Shown here: positions 242 through 9,625 of the stretch, one piece after another
Numbering within the stretch: position 1 is the stretch's first letter
How the letters are laid out: every line of letters starts with the position of its first letter
NCBI GenBank assembly: GCA_007134725.1
Contig: SLKF01000100.1
Coordinates: forward strand, 1-17,323
DNA length: 17,323 nucleotides
From: Clostridiales bacterium
GTDB lineage: Bacteria > Bacillota > Clostridia > Peptostreptococcales > T1SED10-28
Direction of reading: 5' to 3'
Program-made: the position numbers and the translations under genes
The notes under the pieces: model-generated
What the model saw: the letters and a program-made list of their open reading frames with translations, nothing else
Database searches by the model: none
Told to the model about the DNA's origin: nothing

Positions 242-1558
242 TTAGGGTTTGACTTCAAAAACCCTTTGGTCCTGTATTTCAGTCCCTAAGGCTTCCAGAG
301 AGGCCCTAACGATTTTTCTCCGCAAGAGTTTTTCCTCTTCCATGGATTTATTCGGGTCTCCTACGGGATAGGGAATTGCCACTCCCGGAATAATCCGGTT
401 GGCTCCTGTGGTCAGGGAAATCGGAACAATGGTACAGATGTGTACAACGCCGATTCCATACCGTTCAATCTCTTTGACGACCGTTGCTCCGCAACGGGTA
501 CAGGTGCCTCAGGTGGAGGTGAGAATCACGCCGTCCACGCCGTCTTCCTTCAGTTGTTTTCCGATCTCCACACCAAACCGTTGGGAGTTCATTACCGATG
601 TTCCGGTTCCCACCGTGGTGTAAAAATATTCATGGACTTTCCCGATATAGCCTTCTTTTTCAAAATCTCTCAATACATCCAACGGTAAGATCCGATCCGG
701 ATCTCCATTGGCATAGATGGGATCATAACCTCCATGCACGGTTTCATAGGCATCTTCCACAAAGTCATCCAATCCTTCGATGGAATATTTTCCGAATTTC
801 GTTGCACTGGCAGACTCGATGCGATCAGGATTTCCTTTGGGAAGAATCCCTCCGGTACACACTAGAGCAATGGTAGCTTTACTGAGATCTTCAATGGCCG
901 CTGCCGCTTTTACCCGGTCAAATACGGGAACATTGAGCTCCGTTTCAAAGGGCTCTTCCCTAAACCGCTTCATCAGCATCTCAACCGCCCGTTCAGCTCC
1001 GTTTTTATCAGAAAAAACCGTTACCCGACGACCTTGAGGGAAAATCCCTTCTTTTTTAGGCTCTTCCAAGGCTTCTCCCCGAAGAAGTTTCTTTGCGATT
1101 TCCCCCATCTTCGGCAAAGCCTTTCGCATAGTCGCTGCGGAATTTCCGGTCCTGACAATATGAATACTGGCTTTTGCTCCTTCCAATCCCGGGTTTTCTT
1201 CATACATTCCCGACAGTACGGGAATCTGCAGTTCTTCGTTAATCATTTTTCCCACCCCGCCGCAGGCCATTCCGTATCGCCCTGCATTAAAGGCGGGACC
1301 TGCCACAAAGAGGTCAGGTTCATGTTTTTTTACCATCTCAAGAATGGTTTTTTTGGCATCTTTTTCATGTTCATTATAGTAGTTGTCTCCACAGATGATG
1401 GTGGCAACCACGGTGCCTTCACCCTGAAGATAACCCTCAAGTCCCATTGCCGGGCCTTTTGCTCCCAGGGTTTCTTCCGGTGGTATATGGGCTTTTTCTT
1501 CGCCTCCGATGTTTCCGAAAAATTGATTGATATAATACACAACTTTTTTCTCTGCCAT
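242..1558 (-). CDS. Glycine/sarcosine/betaine reductase component B, selenoprotein subunit (GrdB/GrdF/GrdH family), UGA read as selenocysteine
   Basis: This is the selenocysteine-containing 47-kDa-type subunit of substrate-specific protein B, which passes the substrate as a Schiff base partner to selenoprotein A for reductive deamination. The frame meets UGA at 511-509 (residue 350) but continues as U-G-T-C-T-R-C-G-A-T-V-V-K-E-I-E and on to TAA at 244-242, giving 438 residues, the normal family length. The U-x-x-C-x-x-C motif is the family's redox site. The start is the ATG at 1558: AGGAGG (1572-1567) is 8 nt upstream and overlaps the alternative GTG at 1567, so the GTG is unlikely. The N-terminus (V-V-Y-Y-I-N-Q-F-F-G) is typical. 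The gene begins 12 nt after the GrdE-type gene, whose TAG stop sits inside this SD. Substrate (glycine, sarcosine or betaine) is not certain. Confidence 0.95.
481..511 (-). promoter_or_regulatory. Selenocysteine UGA codon with bacterial SECIS-like hairpin
   Basis: The in-frame UGA is at 511-509. After 11 nt there is a perfect 7-bp stem, CCGTTGC (497-491) with GCAACGG (487-481), closed by a GGA loop (490-488). Distance and loop G fit the upper mini-hairpin of bacterial SECIS elements, which SelB binds within the coding region. It is encoded within conserved G-T-C-T-R-C-G-A-T codons, so part of the pairing follows from the protein sequence; its SECIS role is inferred. Confidence 0.85.
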
Positions 1559-1570
1559 TTTCGCCACCTC

Positions 1571-2857
1571 CTAATATTCCTTAACGGTCACATTGTGGTA
1601 TCCGATTTCTGAAGTACAGCCGAGAATGGCATTCAGTTCACACTCCAGGCTGCCGTCAGGCAAGAGACTTCCACTGTATCCCCCCGCCAGATGTTCGATG
1701 GCCTTCTCATTTCCGATGACCTTCTCCATGGGAGGCAACGTCACAAGGTGGCTGACATTCCCTGTGCTGATAATAGCTTTTGCATAGGGACTGGCATCCG
1801 TAAGGGATTGGCTCATTCCATCCCGTCCTGCACATTCATCCGTAATCAGAACAGTTTTCACACCCTCTTCCTCCAACAGTTTACAGTTCAGCATCAAATC
1901 GGAATCCGGGTTGCCGTAACCTTCTTCAGAAACAATGACTCCATCGGCTCCCAGGTGCTTTGCAATATTTGTTGCCATATTACAGGAACGAAGTTTTCCC
2001 TGCAGCGTAATGTTTTCATTGGTCAGAACCACTCCCAGAAACACCAGATCTTTACCATGTCGCTTATAGAGTTCCTTAACCACGGAATTGTTCAAATGTT
2101 GATAGGTGGTGATCTTATCACAGGCTGCCACGCAATTTCCACTGACTACGGCACCGTCTAAAACTTCATTGGGATGCAGCAAGGTTGGAAGGGTTTGCTT
2201 TGCATCCAACCCATAGATATAAGTGTCATGGAGAAGTCCTTGAGTGATGAGCATTTCCAGATACACAACTTTGGGTAAATCAGGATACTTTACGATTTCC
2301 ACCGCGTTGCTGTTCATTTCAAAGGTTTCAATCTCGTCGGGTTCAAGGTTCCTGGCACATTCTCCTATATAGGCTGCAGCTTTCAGTCCCGCCAACCTGG
2401 CGGCTTCCTCGTGTTCATGTTGGGTGATTCCTTTCTTCGGCTCCAGCTCCACGATAATGTTGAGGGTTTTAGAGAAGGGACTGTAGGCAGCTCCGGGACC
2501 ACTCATATCAAGAACCCCCTCTTGGAATCCGACGATGCTTCCCGTTGTCACCACAGCAGCATTTTTGAACACATGGGATCGCCCTTTACCGGCGGTTGCC
2601 ATGGTGCTGGTCACTCCGGGAAATTCTTTTGCTTCCCCGACCACTTTTACCCGGGGCTCAATCACATCTTTGACGGGAATGATTCGAACCGATTCTCCCG
2701 GCTTTGCCAGATCCACGTTCACTTTGCCGATTCTGTGATCCTCCAGTAAATGGTCCCTCAACCCTTGGACATTAACCGTTAAAATCCCCTCCTCAAAAGC
2801 ATTCTCTTCACCGAGTACCACGTCTTTGACAAAAATATTTCCCATTTCCAGTTTCAT
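1571..2857 (-). CDS. Glycine/sarcosine/betaine reductase component B, proprotein subunit (GrdE/GrdG/GrdI family)
   Basis: The 428-residue proprotein of substrate-binding protein B. In this family it is cleaved at an Asn-Cys bond to give alpha and beta chains, the cysteine becoming a pyruvoyl group that binds the substrate amine. Here the site is N241-C242 in the context S-G-N-C-V-A-A-C-D-K, matching the position known for GrdE. Other family stretches are V-K-D-V-I-E-P-R-V (62-70) and T-D-E-x-A-G-R-D-G in the C-terminal half. The residues after the cleavage site (K-I-T-T-Y-Q-H) remind me more of sarcosine/betaine-type GrdG/GrdI than of glycine-type GrdE, but this is from memory. ATG at 2857 has AGGAGG at 2872-2867, overlapping the grdX stop. 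The gene's own TAG overlaps the next SD, so grdX, this gene and the selenoprotein form a tightly coupled operon. Confidence 0.95.
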   Translation of the reverse strand: MKLEMGNIFVKDVVLGEENAFEEGILTVNVQGLRDHLLEDHRIGKVNVDLAKPGESVRIIPVKDVIEPRVKVVGEAKEFPGVTSTMATAGKGRSHVFKNAAVVTTGSIVGFQEGVLDMSGPGAAYSPFSKTLNIIVELEPKKGITQHEHEEAARLAGLKAAAYIGECARNLEPDEIETFEMNSNAVEIVKYPDLPKVVYLEMLITQGLLHDTYIYGLDAKQTLPTLLHPNEVLDGAVVSGNCVAACDKITTYQHLNNSVVKELYKRHGKDLVFLGVVLTNENITLQGKLRSCNMATNIAKHLGADGVIVSEEGYGNPDSDLMLNCKLLEEEGVKTVLITDECAGRDGMSQSLTDASPYAKAIISTGNVSHLVTLPPMEKVIGNEKAIEHLAGGYSGSLLPDGSLECELNAILGCTSEIGYHNVTVKEY

Positions 2858-2870
2858 CCACTAACACCTC

Positions 2871-3242
2871 CTATAAGACTCCTAGTTCCTTCAAGGTACT
2901 TTGCAGTAATTGTTCATCCACATATTGAAAATCTTCCATCAACACTTTATCAACCGGTGTTTTCATAACCCTCATCCGTTCATAATATCGCAGGGCTTTT
3001 TCAATGGTCTCTAAAGAAGGAAGGTCAACACCCTCATTTATGTTCTTAGGCTTTAAAAGAACCGCCGACCGGAAGGGACTCTCCATCATTCGCCGGCTTG
3101 CCGGCATCGGATCACTTAAGAGTTTTGCTCCTAAATGAACCTGGTCCCTGATGATCTTATAAAATTCTATACAGTTTCTCTTATAGTAAATCACTTTGCA
3201 TTTAGTATTTCTAACCAAAGGATTATTGGTGTGAATTTCCAT
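2871..3242 (-). CDS. grdX: GrdX family protein
   Basis: A 123-residue protein, the small gene that usually opens glycine-reductase operons; its biochemical role is not established. It starts M-E-I-H-T-N-N-P-L-V and includes the N-P-x-V segment near the N-terminus plus the mid-protein D-x-V-H-x-G-A-K-L-L-S-D-P-M-P pattern that I recognise from GrdX. The central basic stretch (R-R-M-M-E-S-P-F-R-S-A) is followed by a helical C-terminal half. It has no signal peptide or membrane segment. ATG at 3242 is preceded by AGGAAGG (3255-3249). It is the first gene behind the sigma-54 promoter at 3306-3291, and its TAG overlaps the SD of the following proprotein gene. Recognition rests on both sequence and operon position. 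Confidence 0.88.
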   Translation of the reverse strand: MEIHTNNPLVRNTKCKVIYYKRNCIEFYKIIRDQVHLGAKLLSDPMPASRRMMESPFRSAVLLKPKNINEGVDLPSLETIEKALRYYERMRVMKTPVDKVLMEDFQYVDEQLLQSTLKELGVL

Positions 3243-3290: not shown

Positions 3291-3307
3291 GCAAAGTTAG
3301 TGCCAAG
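3291..3307 (-). promoter_or_regulatory. Sigma-54 promoter of the grdX operon
   Basis: The minus strand reads CTTGGCACTAACTTTGC. This gives the -24 element TTGGCAC (3306-3300), five nucleotides, then the -12 TTGC (3294-3291), with exactly 10 nt between GG and GC as sigma-54 requires. Transcription should start near 3280, about 40 nt before the grdX ATG. A TATAAT-like hexamer (3288-3283) follows but has no matching -35. It implies activation by an AAA+ enhancer-binding protein not encoded in this window. Confidence 0.85.
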
Positions 3308-3451
3308 TTTTTGATTTTTCTTTATTTTCAGTTAATTTTTTCGCCGCTTCCCTTTATTTAGCCCTTCGAATTAATTGTTAATAAATAAACAATTTGATTT
3401 TTTGAAATTTTCTGTCTTTCGACGGTGTGAAAGGGCTTTTCACCCTTTATT

Positions 3452-3489
3452 TATGTCGTTATTTAGACGTTCGTCAATTTTTCGACATA
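3452..3489. promoter_or_regulatory. Concentric dyad, candidate enhancer site for the grdX sigma-54 promoter
   Basis: Outer arms TATGTCG (3452-3458) and CGACATA (3483-3489) share their centre (3470.5) with an inner palindrome GACG-TT-CGTC (3466-3475). The centre is about 165 nt upstream of the -24 element, a normal distance for an upstream activating sequence. No U-tract follows, so it does not look like an intrinsic terminator for the gene ending at 3533. Its function is inferred. Confidence 0.55.
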
Positions 3490-3532
3490 TTTTCAATGAT
3501 TTCCAACCCTAAAGTCGAGATAACTTCCACTA

Positions 3533-4024
3533 TTATTCCATTTTGATATATCTCACCGGATTATTCTGATTTTTTAAAAACTTCTCGAAATCTTCGTATG
3601 AGATTGTTATACTGGCAGTGTTGATATTAGGATGGAAGGTGATTTTTTCCTCTTTCTTCAAATCTTCATCCACCAAAACAATAACTTTACCGTCTTCATT
3701 ATTAATCAAACCGAAAACCGAAACCCCTCCGGGTTCAAGTCCCAAGTGAGCTTTCAACCGTTTTTCCGAGGCAAAACTCAACCGGGTGCTTCCAATCTTC
3801 TGAGCGATGGCCTGGGTATTGGCCTTTTTGTCATGGTGCACCAGTGCAAGATAATGTACATTCCCTTTGGCATTTCTCAAAAATAGACTTTTACAATGCA
3901 TCGGTTCAATGGTAAACTCCAAATTTTCGATATCTTCCATGGTCATTACCGGTGGATGCTCATATTTTTCGTACTCAATTTCCAAGGTGTCCAAAACCTG
4001 ATATACTTTTTCCGCTTCATTCAT
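3533..4024 (-). CDS. ProXp-ala-type (YbaK/PrdX family) aminoacyl-tRNA deacylase
   Basis: A 163-residue single-domain trans-editing protein that, by family, hydrolyses mischarged Ala-tRNA(Pro). Visible family features are the E-H-P-P-V motif (22-26), K45 in C-K-S-L-F-L-R, which matches the essential lysine of the INS/YbaK superfamily, L-x-L-E-P-G-G-V-S-V-F-G-L (94-106), and H-P-N (131-133) near the C-terminal T-I-S-Y-E-D-F. The start is taken as ATG at 4024: it has a GGTGA-type SD and gives the family's usual N-terminus, whereas an in-frame ATG at 4066 lacks an SD and would overlap the upstream gene. It follows the ThiF/MoeB-like gene by 28 nt. Relatives named PrdX sit beside proline reductase genes in Stickland clostridia, which fits the proline-related surroundings. 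Confidence 0.9.
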   Translation of the reverse strand: MNEAEKVYQVLDTLEIEYEKYEHPPVMTMEDIENLEFTIEPMHCKSLFLRNAKGNVHYLALVHHDKKANTQAIAQKIGSTRLSFASEKRLKAHLGLEPGGVSVFGLINNEDGKVIVLVDEDLKKEEKITFHPNINTASITISYEDFEKFLKNQNNPVRYIKME

Positions 4025-4052
4025 TTTATCACCAATCCTTTTTTTGAATTTA

Positions 4053-4820
4053 CTATAAGAACTCATAGTATTCTTTTACACAGCAGGGGCATTCTTCGTT
4101 CTTTGGAAGAGAAATCGTTTCATAATCATTCTCCCATAGATTGATATGAATCATGTCTTTCAAAATCTTCTCCCGATTCCCACTCAAGTATTTGATGGCT
4201 TCACTGACTTGGTAGGTGGCAATCATACCGGTTATGGTATTTAAAACACCGTGGGTATCGGCTCTTTGGGTTTCATTTTTCTCCAGGGGATGCATCATCA
4301 TACAGCGAAGGCACGGTCCCCCGTCGGGAAAAAAGGTTTTTATATTACCGTGGTTTTCCACAGCGCCCCCATAAATCCATGGAATCTTTTTCTTAAATGC
4401 ACCATCGTTGATAATGTATCTGGTTGGAAAATTGTCGGTACAGTCAATGACCAGGTCAATACCCTCCATTAACTCCAGAATGTTTTCACCGGTACATCGT
4501 TGATTTACGGCTTCAATCCTGATCTGCCCATCAAGCCGATGAACATACTTTTTTACCGCATCCACTTTCAATGTCTCTTCTTCCACATCTTCGGGAAAAT
4601 AGAGTATTTGTCGATGGAGATTGCTCATTTCCACCACATCCTGATCCACAACCCGCAAAAATCCCACACCAGCTCTTACAAGCAAATTAATGACGGGGGT
4701 TCCCAATCCGCCACATCCAATAATTAAGACTTTTCCCTTTTCCAGGCGTTTCTGCCCGGTTTCCCCCAGGCCGTAAAAAAGAGATTGTTTATGAAATCGC
4801 CCATGCCTTCCTTCGGTCAC
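4053..4820 (-). CDS. ThiF/MoeB/HesA-family E1-like adenylyltransferase
   Basis: A 255-residue cytosolic enzyme of the family that adenylates the C-terminal Gly-Gly of ubiquitin-like sulfur carriers (ThiS, MoaD) or related substrates. Visible features are the nucleotide-binding G-C-G-G-L-G loop (35-40), V-V-D-Q-D (58-61 region), S-N-L-H-R-Q (66-71), the catalytic-region D-C-T-D-N (126-130), and a zinc site formed by C170-x-x-C173 with C244-x-x-C247. The segment corresponding to the thiolation cysteine of ThiF reads A-D-T-H-G-V-L without cysteine, so it may only adenylate. No rhodanese domain is fused. The start is GTG at 4820 with AGGAGG (4835-4830) 9 nt upstream. No sulfur-carrier gene is in the window, so the substrate is unknown. 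It leads a two-gene unit with the tRNA-editing gene. Confidence 0.9.
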   Translation of the reverse strand: MTEGRHGRFHKQSLFYGLGETGQKRLEKGKVLIIGCGGLGTPVINLLVRAGVGFLRVVDQDVVEMSNLHRQILYFPEDVEEETLKVDAVKKYVHRLDGQIRIEAVNQRCTGENILELMEGIDLVIDCTDNFPTRYIINDGAFKKKIPWIYGGAVENHGNIKTFFPDGGPCLRCMMMHPLEKNETQRADTHGVLNTITGMIATYQVSEAIKYLSGNREKILKDMIHINLWENDYETISLPKNEECPCCVKEYYEFL

Positions 4821-4888
4821 CCTTAATCCCCTCCTTTTTGGTTTTCAATATCCAACCTGCTCCTAAATTGTCAGATGATTTAGAAAAT

Positions 4889-4917
4889 ATTTTATCACAG
4901 GGGATCATTAAAAGCAA
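4889..4917 (-). promoter_or_regulatory. Sigma-A promoter of the ThiF-like / ProXp-ala unit
   Basis: TTGCTT (4917-4912), 17 nt, then TAAAAT (4894-4889), with a TGA directly before the -10 giving an extended TGn element. It lies immediately after the hypD terminator and about 70 nt before the GTG start. The -35 is only a partial match. Confidence 0.6.
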
Positions 4918-4918
4918 C

Positions 4919-4943
4919 AAACCCCGGAGGGCATCCGGGGTTT
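4919..4943 (-). terminator. Intrinsic terminator of the hypD operon
   Basis: A perfect 10-bp stem, AAACCCCGGA with TCCGGGGTTT, around a 5-nt loop, starts 6 nt after the hypD stop codon. It is followed on the minus strand by GTTGCTTTT, a modest U-rich tail. Stem strength makes termination likely. Confidence 0.85.
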
Positions 4944-4949
4944 ATCTTA

Positions 4950-7331
4950 TCAGATCATCTTTTGTTCCGTTCTTGCAATAATTTCGTCCTGAAGGCTTTT
5001 GTTCAGATTATTGAAGTAATCACTGTAACCCGCAACCCGAACAATGAGATCCCTATGTTCTTCCGGCTTTTCCTGGGCTTTTCGAAGGGTCTTTGCATCC
5101 ACCACATTAAACTGAATATGATGACCGTCCAGCTTGAAATAGGACCGAATAAGATAAGTCAGATGATCCAGACTTTCATCACTTTCCATCATCTGAGGCG
5201 TAAACTTTTGATTCAATAGGGTTCCTCCGGTTTTAAGGTGATCCATCTTTGATGCGGATTTAATCACCGCTGTGGGTCCATTTCGGTCGCTTCCCTGAAC
5301 CGGGGAGATTCCTTCGGAAAGGGGTAATCCCCCTCTTCGCCCCTCCGCTGTTGCTCCGATCACCGAACCGAAATACACATGGCAGGTGGTAGGGAGCATG
5401 TTTATGCGGTAGGTGCCACCCCGCATGGTGGGTCTGCCGTTGACGGCTTCGTAAAAGCTGTTGAAAACCTGGGTCATGATGCTGTCGGCATAGTCATCAT
5501 CGTTTCCGTAACGGGGTGTTTTATTTAATAGAAATTGACGCATGGGTTCCTGATTTTCAAAATTCTTGTTCAGTACATCCAGGAGTTTATCCATGGAATA
5601 TTTTTTCTGATCGAACACATGATATTTGATGGCGGATAAACTGTCCGTAATCGTCCCGATCCCCACCCCTTGAATGTAATTGGTGTTGTATCTGGCACCG
5701 CCGGCGTTGTAATCCTTTGCCTTCTTGATGCAGTCATCAATCACTGTGGATAGAAATGGTGCCGGCATATAATTGGCATAGAGTTTTTCGATCAAGTGAT
5801 TCCCCCGAATTTTGATATCAATAAAATAATTCAACTGGGTCTTAAAGGCTTCCATCAATTGATCAAAATCATTAAAATCCTTCGGGGATCCGGTTTTTAG
5901 ACCGATCATTTTCTCTGTTCTTGGATCCACACCGTTATGCAGGGTGATCTCCAAAATTTTGGTCAGGTTAAAATATCCCGTCAGGATATAGCTTTCCTTC
6001 CCAAAGGCTCCGGTTTCAACACAGCCGCTGTTTCCTCCACAGCGGGCATCTTCGATGGTTTTGCCCTGACGTAAGAGTTCTCCAATCACCGCATCCGTAT
6101 TAAAAATGGAAGGCTGTCCCCATCCCTTTCGAATAATTTCTCCCGCTTTTTTGATGAAACCGTTTGGTGTCTTTTTGCTTACCTGAATATTGGTGCTGGG
6201 CTGTAAAAGCCGCATTTCATCAATGACTTCCAATAAAAGATAGGAAGCTTCATTGACTCCATCGGAGCCGTCAACCTTAAGCCCCCCCACATTGATATTG
6301 GCAAAATCCGTATAGGTTCCGCTTTCCTGGAGGGTAATCCCCACCTTAGGCGGTGCAGGCTGATTGTTGAATTTTATCCAGAAGCATTGCAGCAGTTCCT
6401 TGGCTTCCTCTCTTGTTAAGGTGCCCGCTTCAATTTCCTTTGTATAAAAAGGTTCCAAGTGCTGATCCAGTCTTCCCGGTGAAAAAGCGTCCCAGGTATT
6501 GAGCTCAGTGATAACGCCTAAATGCACAAACCAGTAGGCCTGGAGGGCTTCATGAAAAGTTCTTGGTGCATATTTCGGAACATGAAAGGCAATATCCGCA
6601 ATTCTTTCCAACTCTTTCTTTCGCTTGGGATCTACTTCTTTCCGGCTCAGCTCCATAGCCTTTTTCCCATGACGTTCTGCAAAAATCATAATTCCATCGG
6701 CCGAGAGATCCATGGCTTTGAGTTCTTCCTGTTTTTCATAGGCTTCCGGGTCACTCATGAAATCCAACCCATCCAGTTCCCCTTTAATTTCTTCTTTTAT
6801 TTCTAAAAATCCTTTTTTAAAGATCTTATCGTCTCCCACGGTATGACCGGGGGCTCGCTGCTCCATAAACTCCGTAAAAATTCCTGCTGCATAACACTCC
6901 ATCCACTCTTCGGTCATCTCGTTAAAAATAAGATCCCGAATGGATTTTCCCTGCCAGTAGGGGATGATCTCCTTCTTTTGAACTTCTAGAACCTTTTCGG
7001 TGACGGCAAAGGAGATTTTCTCCCGCTTGTCCATGATGTCCATATCCTCCAGGGTGTGACAGCAAAGCTCAGGATAGTTTGGCGCCTGCTGAGGTCCTTC
7101 CCCCCGTTCACCTACAACCAACTCATCCTCATTGATACAGATGGTTTTATTCTCCATCATATGTTTAAAAGTCCGTGCCCGAAGGACAGGAATCGACACT
7201 TTCCCTTGGTGCTGTTTATAGGCCTCCGTCACCAGCCGTGCCCGTTCAATGCTAATTTTCGGGGTGGTGGTCTCACTCTGCGCTCTGAGTTTTTTTACTC
7301 GAGCATTCATTCCCCGTAATTCCTTTTTCAT
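4950..7331 (-). CDS. hypD: trans-4-hydroxy-L-proline dehydratase (glycyl radical enzyme)
   Basis: A 793-residue glycyl radical enzyme of the pyruvate-formate-lyase superfamily, which removes water from trans-4-hydroxyproline to give pyrroline-5-carboxylate. The N-terminal PFL domain holds the thiyl-radical cysteine C437 with E439 in G-G-N-S-G-C-V-E-T-G; the C-terminal radical loop R-V-A-G-Y-S-D carries G768. D281 (W-D-A-F-S-P-G-R-L-D-Q-H) and D342 (T-Y-T-D-F-A-N-I-N) match the substrate-binding aspartates of the characterised Clostridioides difficile enzyme (C434, E436, D278, D339, G765), each offset by three. This separates it from glycerol, choline and propanediol dehydratases. The ATG at 7331 has GGAGGA 9 nt upstream and lies 6 nt after the activase stop. 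The name is unrelated to hydrogenase-maturation HypD. The enzyme is oxygen sensitive, so it supports an anaerobic host. Confidence 0.95.
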   Translation of the reverse strand: MKKELRGMNARVKKLRAQSETTTPKISIERARLVTEAYKQHQGKVSIPVLRARTFKHMMENKTICINEDELVVGERGEGPQQAPNYPELCCHTLEDMDIMDKREKISFAVTEKVLEVQKKEIIPYWQGKSIRDLIFNEMTEEWMECYAAGIFTEFMEQRAPGHTVGDDKIFKKGFLEIKEEIKGELDGLDFMSDPEAYEKQEELKAMDLSADGIMIFAERHGKKAMELSRKEVDPKRKKELERIADIAFHVPKYAPRTFHEALQAYWFVHLGVITELNTWDAFSPGRLDQHLEPFYTKEIEAGTLTREEAKELLQCFWIKFNNQPAPPKVGITLQESGTYTDFANINVGGLKVDGSDGVNEASYLLLEVIDEMRLLQPSTNIQVSKKTPNGFIKKAGEIIRKGWGQPSIFNTDAVIGELLRQGKTIEDARCGGNSGCVETGAFGKESYILTGYFNLTKILEITLHNGVDPRTEKMIGLKTGSPKDFNDFDQLMEAFKTQLNYFIDIKIRGNHLIEKLYANYMPAPFLSTVIDDCIKKAKDYNAGGARYNTNYIQGVGIGTITDSLSAIKYHVFDQKKYSMDKLLDVLNKNFENQEPMRQFLLNKTPRYGNDDDYADSIMTQVFNSFYEAVNGRPTMRGGTYRINMLPTTCHVYFGSVIGATAEGRRGGLPLSEGISPVQGSDRNGPTAVIKSASKMDHLKTGGTLLNQKFTPQMMESDESLDHLTYLIRSYFKLDGHHIQFNVVDAKTLRKAQEKPEEHRDLIVRVAGYSDYFNNLNKSLQDEIIARTEQKMI

Positions 7332-7337
7332 TTTCGC

Positions 7338-8240
7338 TCATCCTCCGATCTTTACGGTAATTCCTTCCTCTTGAAACTTTTTTTTCATCCTCTGCATTTC
7401 CTCATCCCTCGGTTCCGGTACATCAGGAATTTGATATTTCCAACCGATCCGCTCATATTTATCCATTCCCGTCTTATGATAGGGCAAAAGCATTACTTCT
7501 TTTAAGCCCATGGATGCAATCCACTTTCCCAGAGCCCTTAGATGGTCTTCCTCGTCGTTCATTCCCGGAATAATGGGGATTCTGACGTAAACCTTTTCTT
7601 TTAAATAGGCCAGTCTTTCCAAATTTTCGAGAATCCGTAGATTTGAAACGCCTGTCATCTCCATATGGCGATCGGTATCCAGATGCTTTACATCATAGAG
7701 GAACAGATCAATGACCTTCCTCACTTGATCAATGGCTTCCCACTTTACATGACCGGAAGTATCAATCGCGGTATGAATGCCTTGCTCTTTACAAACTTTG
7801 GCAATTTCATATACAAACTCCCATTGCATAAGAGGTTCCCCTCCTGAAAAAGTGACCCCTCCTCCGGACTCCTGATAAAAGACTTTGTCTTTTTCAATTT
7901 CTTTTACAACCTCATCCACGGTCATTTCTTTGCCCACTATCTCTAATGCATTTGTGGGGCATACCTCAGCGCATTCGCCGGCCTTAATGCAGACCTCCCG
8001 GTCAAGGATTGATTCTTCTCGGTGAAGTTTTACAGCGTCCACCGGGCAAGCCTTCATGCACTCTCCACAGCTGATACAAAGATTTTTTGAGTAGCTGATC
8101 TCCCGATCAACCCTAATACTCTCGGGATTATGACACCATAAACATTTCAGGGGACATCCCTTAAGAAATATCGTTGTCCGTATCCCCGGACCATCGTGAA
8201 GAGAATATTTCTGAATGTTAAATACAATTCCTTTTTTCAC
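7338..8240 (-). CDS. Glycyl radical enzyme activase (radical SAM), partner of HypD
   Basis: A 300-residue radical-SAM enzyme that abstracts hydrogen from the target glycine of the dehydratase encoded next. C29-x3-C33-x2-C36 binds the catalytic [4Fe-4S] cluster. A ferredoxin-like insert follows: C55-x2-C58-x2-C61-x3-C65 is a complete site, while the second, C84-x5-C90-x3-C94, has alanine at 87 where a cysteine is usual. S-G-G-G-V-T-F-S-G-G-E-P-L matches the SAM-binding GGE motif, and D-V-K-H-L-D is the usual activase motif near residue 190. The start is GTG at 8240 with GAGGTGA at 8251-8245. It is the first gene behind the sigma-54 promoter and is separated from hypD by 6 nt, so the two proteins are made together. 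Confidence 0.93.
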   Translation of the reverse strand: MKKGIVFNIQKYSLHDGPGIRTTIFLKGCPLKCLWCHNPESIRVDREISYSKNLCISCGECMKACPVDAVKLHREESILDREVCIKAGECAEVCPTNALEIVGKEMTVDEVVKEIEKDKVFYQESGGGVTFSGGEPLMQWEFVYEIAKVCKEQGIHTAIDTSGHVKWEAIDQVRKVIDLFLYDVKHLDTDRHMEMTGVSNLRILENLERLAYLKEKVYVRIPIIPGMNDEEDHLRALGKWIASMGLKEVMLLPYHKTGMDKYERIGWKYQIPDVPEPRDEEMQRMKKKFQEEGITVKIGG

Positions 8241-8290
8241 AGCGTCACCTCAGGTTGAATTGATAATAAGTACTTCTTTTATTGATATTA

Positions 8291-8308
8291 TTGCAAGTAC
8301 TGTGCCAA
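8291..8308 (-). promoter_or_regulatory. Sigma-54 promoter of the activase-hypD operon
   Basis: The minus strand reads TTGGCACAGTACTTGCAA: -24 TTGGCAC (8308-8302), five nucleotides, -12 TTGCAA (8296-8291), with exactly 10 nt between GG and GC. This is very close to consensus. Transcription would start near 8280, about 40 nt before the GTG. An imperfect palindrome AGTCT-TC-AGACT (8308-8319) abuts the -24 element. Confidence 0.88.
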
Positions 8309-8352
8309 GTCTTCAGACTAATTATGGATCTCAATGACCTCTTTAATCCAAG

Positions 8353-8398
8353 AAGGGGACAGGGACCCGTCCGGTTTCAGACAAGTTCCTGTCCCCTT
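8353..8398. repeat. REP-like inverted repeat between rocD and the hyp operon
   Basis: Arms AAGGGGACAGGGAC (8353-8366) and GTTCCTGTCCCCTT (8385-8398) pair over 14 positions with one G-T, around an 18-nt loop. The GGGGACAGG...CCTGTCCCC pattern resembles dispersed intergenic palindromes found in several Firmicutes genomes. It begins 28 nt after the rocD stop and could also act as a transcript 3' end, although no U-tract follows on the minus strand. Whether it is repeated elsewhere cannot be seen here. Confidence 0.65.
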
Positions 8399-8425
8399 GT
8401 TGGGAGTCAGTGATGTTAAAAGAAA

Positions 8426-9625
8426 TTACAGGGCTTCCAGAACCCCTTTGATGATCTTAATGGCATCCATCAGTTCCTCTTTGGTAATGACCAGGGGAGG
8501 AGCAAAGCGGATAATATGTCCGTGGGTCTGTTTTGCCAACACTCCTTTTTCTTTCAAGGCGAGACAAACATCATATGCTTCAAAGCCTTCCTCAAACACT
8601 ACGGCGTTCAGAAGTCCTTTCCCTCGGACCTGAACCACTTTGTCTGATTTCACCGTAGAGAGTTCTTCTCTGAATATTTTCCCGAGCTCTTGGGCATTTT
8701 CTGCTAGATGCTCGTCCTCAAGGACTTCCAAAGATGCTTTTGCAACGGCACAGGCAATGGGGTACCCTCCGAAGGTGGAACCGTGGGAACCGGGAGTGAA
8801 AATCTCCATTACTTCCTTTGTCCCCACCACAGCGGAAACTGGAATGACGCCTCCTCCCAAAGCTTTTCCCAAAGTCATAAGATCCGGTTTCACATTCTCA
8901 TGATCCACGGCAAATTTCTTTCCGGTCCGACAGAAACCGGTCTGAATTTCATCGTCAATCATCAGAACATTATGATTGGTACAAATGGATCGGACACAGG
9001 CTAAATACCCTTCGTCAGGTACATAGACCCCGGCTTCCCCTTGAATCGGTTCAATAATAACCGCACAGGTGTTTTCAGTAATGGCATCTTCAATAGCTTT
9101 TGCGTCATTGTAATCCACAATCACAAAACCGGGAGTATAGGGTCCGTAATTTACCCGGGCCACCTCATCGGTTGACATGGAAACAATGGTTATGGTCCGA
9201 CCGTGAAAGTTTTCTTTTACACAGATGATTTCCTGTTTCCCATTTTCAATGCCTTTTTTTTCAACACCCCAACGACGGGCGATTTTCAGTGCGGTTTCTA
9301 CAGCCTCTGCTCCGGTGTTCATGGGAAGAGCAACGTCAAAGCCTGTGTATTCACAAAGTTTCTTGAGATAAACTCCCATGACATCATTATGAAAGGCCCG
9401 AGAGGTCAAGGTACAGCGCCCGGCCTGTTCAATCAAAGCATCAATAATTTTAGGATGGCGATGTCCCTGATTCACGGCGGAATAAGCGGACAGAAAATCA
9501 TAATACTCCCGTCCCTCGGGATCCCAGACTTTCACACCTTCAGCTTTGGAGATTACCACTGGTAGCGGATGATAATTATGGGCACCATAGGTTTCATCCA
9601 TTTTGATATAATCTTGTGTATTCAT
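8426..9625 (-). CDS. rocD: Ornithine--oxo-acid aminotransferase
   Basis: A 399-residue class-III PLP aminotransferase that converts ornithine and 2-oxoglutarate to glutamate-5-semialdehyde (in equilibrium with P5C) and glutamate. The ornithine-specific N-terminus reads Y-G-A-H-N-Y-H-P-L-P-V-V (13-24). N-T-G-A-E-A (103-108) contacts PLP phosphate, L-M-I-D-D-E-I-Q-T-G (221-230) holds the cofactor aspartate, and K254 in L-G-K-A-L-G-G-G forms the Schiff base. Length is normal for bacterial RocD. ATG at 9625 follows a strong AAAGGAGG. It has its own sigma-A promoter and is followed by a REP-like repeat, so it appears monocistronic. It lies directly upstream of the hydroxyproline dehydratase operon, whose product is the same P5C. 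Confidence 0.94.
   Translation of the reverse strand: MNTQDYIKMDETYGAHNYHPLPVVISKAEGVKVWDPEGREYYDFLSAYSAVNQGHRHPKIIDALIEQAGRCTLTSRAFHNDVMGVYLKKLCEYTGFDVALPMNTGAEAVETALKIARRWGVEKKGIENGKQEIICVKENFHGRTITIVSMSTDEVARVNYGPYTPGFVIVDYNDAKAIEDAITENTCAVIIEPIQGEAGVYVPDEGYLACVRSICTNHNVLMIDDEIQTGFCRTGKKFAVDHENVKPDLMTLGKALGGGVIPVSAVVGTKEVMEIFTPGSHGSTFGGYPIACAVAKASLEVLEDEHLAENAQELGKIFREELSTVKSDKVVQVRGKGLLNAVVFEEGFEAYDVCLALKEKGVLAKQTHGHIIRFAPPLVITKEELMDAIKIIKGVLEAL

Follow-up and report, generated by a model that had tools for sequence, protein, structure and literature searches.

Sigma-54 promoters of the -24/-12 type are known from several operons of Stickland metabolism. In Clostridioides difficile, the proline reductase (prd) operon is under sigma-54 control, and the sarcosine reductase genes CD1740-1741 have a -24/-12 promoter with the SarRS system adjacent, according to the parts available of two studies (PMC7438776, PMC6615313). 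SigL promoters have been described in the betaine cluster of Sporomusa sphaeroides KIAC (PMC12456013), and, as far as the accessible excerpts go, earlier reports already place the genes for sarcosine reductase and betaine reductase under sigma-54 (PMC7438776, PMC6615313, PMC12456013). The C. difficile glycine reductase operon is reported, in the portion of text at hand, not to be read from a -24/-12 promoter and to rise in a sigL mutant. Hydroxyproline, which is abundant in collagen, feeds anaerobes via the dehydratase HypD, and little is known of how hypD is switched. Here we compare with these systems a stretch of 17,323 nucleotides (the window), which is contig C291 of the genome of a Clostridiales bacterium (G000; 80% complete, 308 contigs) and carries two perfect sigma-54 sites, one before a glycine/sarcosine/betaine reductase (grd) operon and one before the genes for the HypD activase and HypD (hyp operon).

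From the sequences compared below, we consider it likely that both sites are working sigma-54 promoters with different activators, namely, an enhancer-binding protein (EBP) of the PrdR family together with Rex at grd and another EBP at hyp. The finding is a variant of the known sigma-54 control of Stickland metabolism. Among the literature matches listed, a scope outside which supplements and most subscription papers fall, no report placed sigma-54 at hypD; a PrdR-type enhancer at a grd operon was likewise not reported among the matches listed. The available sections of the work on HypD and its activase (PMC7077986, PMC9044972) deal with the same enzyme pair, activase upstream, and describe no sigma-54 promoter there; the response of hypD to hydroxyproline in rich medium is stated to differ among four clostridia (PMC9044972).

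Two predicted sigma-54 promoters in the window

The pattern TTGGCAC-N5-TTGC (TTGGCACNNNNNTTGC) has two exact matches in the window (Table 1), compared with a mean of 0.01 in 200 dinucleotide shuffles, and none of the shuffles (0/200) contained two. The preliminary description of this DNA had proposed near-consensus sigma-54 promoters before the two operons, and this observation is confirmed and extends beyond the window. The distance from GG to GC is 10 nt at both sites, as had been said, and the hyp end lies one base away from the proposed 8292, at 8293. The gap from the site to the first start codon is 48 nt for grdX (ATG at 3242) and 52 nt for the activase gene (GTG at 8240), which predicts leaders of about 37 and 41 nt, respectively. 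Because a shorter pattern with up to 2 mismatches was not enriched in the window (11 matches versus 10.8 expected), only perfect sites were counted, and degenerate matches in the window were dropped. The suggestion that neighboring genes have sigma-A promoters could not be established (28 sigma-70-like matches versus 16.6 in shuffles).

Table 1. Features of the window, with coordinates on its 17,323 bases
Feature	Position	Strand	Basis
Start of SNF-family Na+ symporter gene, cut by contig end	1..122	-	PF00209 on the C180 part; continues there if the contigs adjoin
grdF-like selenoprotein B gene, in-frame UGA at 509-511	242..1567	-	TIGR01918, 639.9 bits (cut-off 65.45)
grdG-like gene, subunit of protein-B reductase	1571..2857	-	Best NF040793 (sarcosine GrdG), 574.3 bits, under cut-off 780
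grdX	2871..3242	-	NF038093, 81.9 bits (cut-off 40)
Predicted sigma-54 (-24/-12) promoter of grdX-grdG-grdF	3291..3306	-	TTGGCAC-N5-TTGC; site at same place in G391 and G395
Rex-box-like palindrome, TTGTTTA-TTTA-TTAACAA on - strand	3375..3392	.	1 mismatch to TTGTTAANNNNTTAACAA; between enhancer and promoter
PrdR-type enhancer, first of tandem, GTC-N8-GAC	3453..3470	.	8.2 bits, matrix from 42 prd sites
PrdR-type enhancer, second of tandem, 18 bp from first	3471..3488	.	14.4 bits, top score in whole window
ybaK/proX-like tRNA deacylase gene	3533..4066	-	TIGR00011 best, 35.8 bits, under cut-off 153.25; 85% identical copy in G395
thiF/moeB-like gene	4053..4820	-	89% identical copy before same enhancer in G395
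Terminator-like hairpin directly 3' of hypD	4916..4946	-	13 pairs
hypD, trans-4-hydroxy-L-proline dehydratase (glycyl radical enzyme)	4950..7331	-	NF043068, 1424.5 bits (cut-off 1100)
HypD activase gene (radical SAM), GTG start	7338..8240	-	NF043069, 416 bits, just under cut-off 425
Predicted sigma-54 promoter of activase-hypD operon	8293..8308	-	TTGGCAC-N5-TTGC; similar position in relatives
24-nt inverted repeat upstream of hyp promoter	8348..8403	.	GGGGACAGG arms; between ornithine aminotransferase gene and promoter
Ornithine aminotransferase gene, upstream neighbor of hyp promoter	8426..9625	-	TIGR01885, 600.2 bits (cut-off 378.4)

The source genome encodes the machinery that such promoters imply. 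Absence of rpoN had been named as an argument against them, and a C-terminal fragment of rpoN with the sigma-54 DNA-binding domain was found at a contig start of G000. PF00158 has 13 matches in the genome, one of them ClpB-like on reading, which leaves 12 EBPs, and for nine of the 12, a -24/-12 site lies next to the gene, in two cases with 1 mismatch. The proposed genome scan gave 85 matches with at most 1 mismatch, compared with 43 for the reversed pattern. Seven of the matches have no mismatch. The window accounts for two; of the other five, those on C83 and C175 are intergenic beside an EBP gene, those on C55 and C57 are intergenic without one, and that on C34 lies inside a gene. The C34, C55, and C57 matches favor the explanation that the two window sites are chance matches and that the operons use sigma-A promoters. 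We regard this explanation as very improbable, because two sites were found where 0.01 were expected, both at the right distance before operons, and because the sites recur in relatives. Control by EBPs, which had been suggested, is implied by both promoters, which look real.

A probable PrdR-type enhancer and a Rex-like box at grd

In the prd upstream regions of relatives from the same order, 42 GTC-N8-GAC sites were found in 19 regions, with at least one in 18 of the 19; the shuffle mean was 0.21, and other spacings gave 0 to 3 sites. Exactly 18 bp separates 11 of 24 neighboring pairs. These sites agree with the class of upstream activating sequences including that of PrdR which Nie et al., in the part available, characterize by TGT and ACA 10 to 12 bp apart. 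The set was formed from 20 prd stretches by leaving out L320 and L322, which have no perfect promoter, and adding L263; these 19 longer regions replace 27, many of which were cut short, and the position weight matrix (PWM) from 42 sites replaces a first one from 15. Shuffles kept single-base content only for the prd enhancer count and for the hyp palindrome test given below and kept dinucleotides for the PWM tests.

Upstream of the grd promoter, two such sites form a tandem, and the score of the second was reached in 0 of 400 dinucleotide shuffles of the region. The perfect tandem occurs once in G000, at grd; once in G393, of the same genus, before prd; and once in G395, of the same family, where the thiF-ybaK pair precedes it and a sigma-54 site follows at about 180 bp. 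In G391, of the same genus, the grd promoter and the first site are kept (best score, 15.8 bits; 0/400 shuffles). Nine other sigma-54 promoters of G000, the perfect sites on C55 and C57 not among them, all scored -1.9 bits or less with the PrdR PWM. The analogy with PrdR drawn in the preliminary description is closer for grd than the window could tell, since the region upstream of grd carries the tandem enhancer of prd operons.

With the PrdR/prd system of C. difficile and relatives, as far as the sources describe it (PMC6615313, PMC7438776), the window grd operon shares the -24/-12 promoter, the 18-bp tandem of GTC-N8-GAC sites upstream of it, and the EBP group, two members of which are encoded in G000 (on C180 and C179). 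The target differs, being a selenoprotein-B reductase. A search of G391 and of G000, 80% complete, gave no prdA above the cut-off, so the grd operon is not the prd operon, and its promoter, on the motif evidence, would work like a member of the PrdR regulon; prdA is present in G393. Such an enhancer before grd hints that activators can be swapped among Stickland reductases, in which case a switch of the proline type may be put to use for a different electron acceptor.

A second difference from prd is a box between enhancer and promoter that resembles TTGTTAANNNNTTAACAA, the clostridial Rex-box consensus as quoted in the accessible part of PMC5367854. It is the one match with at most 1 mismatch, and 1 of 200 shuffles has one. 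In a three-genome alignment TTGTTTA-N4-TTAACAA forms a second conserved block, and the letters outside N4 are identical in G391 and G395, so that the box near the grd promoter is kept, with its 1 mismatch, in three genomes. With up to 2 mismatches, no Rex box was found at hyp, at C180, or in any of the 18 prd regions scanned (18/18 without). The arrangement of enhancer, Rex-like box, and promoter is largely conserved in the two relatives. In excerpts of the literature, C. difficile Rex is said to regulate glycine reductase among others (PMC12285225), and Rex is said to bind when NADH/NAD+ is low (PMC4885068).

Candidate activators of grd

Two EBPs of G000, encoded on C180 and C179, contain CBS and PAS domains and group with prd-linked EBPs (100/98). 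Along almost its full length, that of C180 shares 41% identity with the prd-linked EBP of G301, a C. difficile-like genome. Because positions 1-121 of the window overlap the end of C180 (8420-8540; L134) exactly over 121 bases, inside one SNF-type transporter gene, the two contigs are probably neighbors. If the junction is true, the order would be sarcosine-oxidase-like (sox-like) operon, PrdR-like EBP, proline racemase homologue, transporter, grdF-grdG-grdX, thiF-ybaK, hyp operon, and ornithine aminotransferase, that is, a proline and hydroxyproline cluster with its own activator inside.

On C180 itself (L134 175-6805), a sigma-54 promoter precedes the sox-like operon, which encodes FAD and ferredoxin-type subunits, and faces the gene for the PrdR-like EBP, with the proline racemase homologue adjoining. 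This promoter has two strong PrdR-type sites (13.7 and 12.2 bits), the best reached in 0 of 400 shuffles. The second PrdR-like EBP (C179:18000-26324; L144), in which the GAFTGA motif reads GAFAGA, stands ahead of a comparable set of FAD/ferredoxin genes. A scan of this C179 stretch that allowed 1 mismatch gave no sigma-54 site, and the best PrdR-type match in the EBP region (3.1 bits) was equalled by 124 of 400 shuffles.

The sarcosine reductase of C. difficile offers another model for grd, namely, an NtrC-type EBP like SarR. In the available text (PMC7438776, PMC6615313), that grdGF-type operon has, like the window, a -24/-12 promoter, but its activator, part of a two-component system, is adjacent, whereas the window has a PrdR-type enhancer and an operon led by grdX. 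An EBP of G000 with a receiver domain, on C241, is placed together with the EBP that is linked to grd in G301 (93/93, with long branches). The only perfect prd-type tandem in the genome sequence stands at grd, largely conserved, and the grdG-like genes of G000 are on C291 and C162, not on C241; we therefore think it improbable that a SarR-like protein drives grd. For the Sporomusa cluster (58 kb), which combines sigma-54 promoters with glycine/sarcosine/betaine reductase as the window does, the accessible part of the paper describes no PrdR-type enhancer (PMC12456013).

Predicted sigma-54 promoters of hypD operons in relatives

Loci with hypD were taken from a named collection (80), a survey of the class (391 genomes; 40 stretches), and two relatives from the order. 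The class survey contributed 39 of 41 nonwindow matches above 1000 bits, plus G269; left out were G215 and G157, in which the start is cut off, and shorter or split matches in G259, G178, and G084. Removal of 1 duplicate from 123 rows and then of 4 of the remaining 122, with less than 60 bp upstream, left 118 loci, window included. Among the 24 loci (again with the window) whose HypD is at least 66.9% identical to that of the window, a cut chosen after a first look and based on the best tblastn segment, 12 have a perfect site and 3 a site with one mismatch (TGGTAT). Perfect sites are absent from the other 94 loci, whose HypD is less similar, and 1 of these has a site with one mismatch; the reversed pattern occurs in 0 of 118 loci. 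Perfect sites start 37 to 93 bp before the activase gene or, in L046, 85 bp before hypD. On a HypD tree of 117 rows, which replaces one of 78, the sites cluster, with 8 changes compared with a mean of 15.2 after shuffling (0/500 as low).

Immediately upstream, 11 of the loci carry a gene for an EBP of about 475 residues, with PAS, AAA+, and Fis domains in the three that were checked; in one of them, L187, the perfect site stands before the EBP gene and not before the activase gene. These 11 EBPs fall into a single group (95/90), joined by a second EBP of L045 and by none of the 12 EBPs of G000. Between EBP gene and promoter lies a palindrome, GTNCC-N6-GGNAC. Of 14 regions of relatives, 9 match it perfectly (shuffle mean, 0.03), and 12, or 13 counting the window, match when 1 mismatch is allowed (shuffle mean, 0.5); its commonest form is GTMCCA-N4-TGGKAC. 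The linked EBP with its defined palindrome is a regulator candidate for hypD. On balance, we lean toward the view that, in Clostridia and Sporomusaceae, these EBPs serve as a sigma-54 activator devoted to hydroxyproline catabolism, with a palindrome of its own, and that the lineage of the window rewired a PrdR-type activator from proline reductase to a selenoprotein-B reductase, gated by Rex.

In the 43 surveyed genomes, rpoN was found in 30, including 10 of the 11 class-survey genomes with a hypD site; among the 13 without it, only G083 has a site (one mismatch). G301, which has rpoN and a prdA promoter identical to the published one of C. difficile, has no sigma-54 site within 2600 bp before hypD. 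In L045 (12609-15515), the second EBP gene directly follows hypD and is itself followed by a gene for an M24 (creatinase/prolidase-type) peptidase and by genes that, on reading, encode an oligopeptide ABC transporter, an arrangement that may point to the use of collagen peptides.

The hyp promoter of the window

The proposal of a sigma-54 promoter with EBP control at hypD thus stands insofar as the promoter recurs in relatives with a linked EBP; the same EBP is not beside hypD of the window. There is no EBP gene in the window, the upstream neighbor being the ornithine aminotransferase gene, and the perfect palindrome is absent from the hyp region, where one match with 1 mismatch was found. Since the adjacent EBP is lacking and its site is not recognizable, the activator here would be another EBP or the same one encoded at a distance, in sequence missing from the assembly. 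Elsewhere in G000 there is 1 perfect GTNCCANNNNTGGNAC, and matches with at most 1 mismatch are rarer than those of the reversed control (31 versus 95, each strand), so a hyp-type enhancer elsewhere in the genome was rejected. The nearest relatives in G000 of the hypD-linked EBPs are OrdR-like EBPs of ornithine and lysine operons (41 to 49% identity), which differ in lying outside the hypD-linked group and standing at ord/ort-type and kamA-type genes (names by reading, with no family search). The EBPs on C263 and C179, the closest by identity, were rejected as hyp activators: each belongs to an operon of its own, of lysine or ornithine type, and neither falls within the hypD-linked group. G391 offered no same-genus footprint of the hyp promoter, as its hypD starts right at the end of a contig and a search gave no activase. 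Besides the window copies, the repeat pattern with GGGGACAGG arms matches only L232 among 337 loci.

Proposed regulation

At grd, the PrdR-family EBP (CBS-PAS-AAA-Fis) of C180, the contig that probably adjoins the window, would bind the GTC-N8-GAC tandem about 165 to 183 bp upstream of the -24 element and, given proline or a related signal as its ligand, open the promoter. While NADH/NAD+ is low, Rex occupying its box between the two elements would block activation, so that the reductase would be made when the cell needs an electron sink. At hyp, in relatives, the PAS-AAA-Fis EBP encoded just upstream would bind the GTMCCA-N4-TGGKAC-like palindrome and turn on activase-hypD, with hydroxyproline as the presumed signal. 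In the lineage of the window, the promoter would have been kept, and its activator may be another EBP or the same EBP encoded in the missing fifth of the genome. The promoter matches, their conservation, the enhancer motifs, the EBP families, and the linkage are observed; the binding events, the ligands, the Rex step, and the direction of regulation are what we infer from them.

Several observations weigh against this scheme. The rpoN gene of G000 is a C-terminal fragment only. The overlap of C180 with the window may come only from a repeated gene and was compared with a subset of own contig stretches out of 308 contigs, and the PrdR-type sites on C180 are not an 18-bp tandem. The tandem is degenerate in its second half in G391, and the G395 stretch ends before any gene downstream of the sigma-54 site. 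With one mismatch, the tandem is no commoner than its reversed control (2 versus 1 in G000, 5 versus 3 in G391, 1 versus 2 in G392, 1 versus 2 in G393, 4 versus 5 in G394, and 2 versus 6 in G395), so what carries the argument for the grd enhancer is the exact tandem, together with its location and the fact that it is conserved. At hypD, 9 of the 24 close loci have no site, and because 20 of the 30 rpoN-positive surveyed genomes show none before hypD (the G391 stretch not being covered), the site is not universal where sigma-54 exists. Finally, the hyp region of the window contains two weak matches in or beside the inverted repeat, a PrdR-type match at 8367-8384 (4.7 bits; 37 of 400 shuffles as good) and a hyp-type palindrome with 1 mismatch at 8391-8406 that lacks the usual CCA/TGG core, about 0.035 such matches per region being expected from shuffles. 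Neither match counts as good enhancer evidence.

The match at 8367-8384 bears on whether one PrdR-like activator drives both operons, reaching hyp either from this GTC-N8-GAC site within the inverted repeat or through a DNA loop that brings in the grd enhancer. That grd, hyp, and the EBP gene are probably one gene cluster would suit such an arrangement. The candidate site, however, besides its low score, has a GC-rich core and lies inside the inverted repeat, and the hyp promoters of relatives mostly have a different palindrome and, where an EBP is linked, one of a different group. We hold this unlikely; most probably, grd and hyp are not under a common activator, and separate activators remain our preferred reading.

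Genes around the promoters

Gene identities were tested with NCBIfam profiles (Table 1). The earlier identification of a glycine/sarcosine/betaine reductase is borne out for the protein-B type by TIGR01918, and every substrate-specific cut-off was missed. The grdF-like protein scored 634.1 bits with the sarcosine model NF040794 (cut-off 800), 598.6 with the glycine model (602.2), and 560.4 with the betaine model (775); GrdF and GrdG thus did not reach the sarcosine reductase cut-offs of NF040794 and NF040793. The hyp transcription unit, as predicted from the sequence, is probably activase-hypD alone and probably ends after hypD, because a terminator-like hairpin follows. In L182 and L184 (G220 and G155), the matched hypD stretch contains one in-frame TAG. 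The thiF-ybaK pair (window 3533-4820; L328 167-1454) is 85 to 89% identical between two genera and in both stands immediately upstream of the grd-type enhancer.

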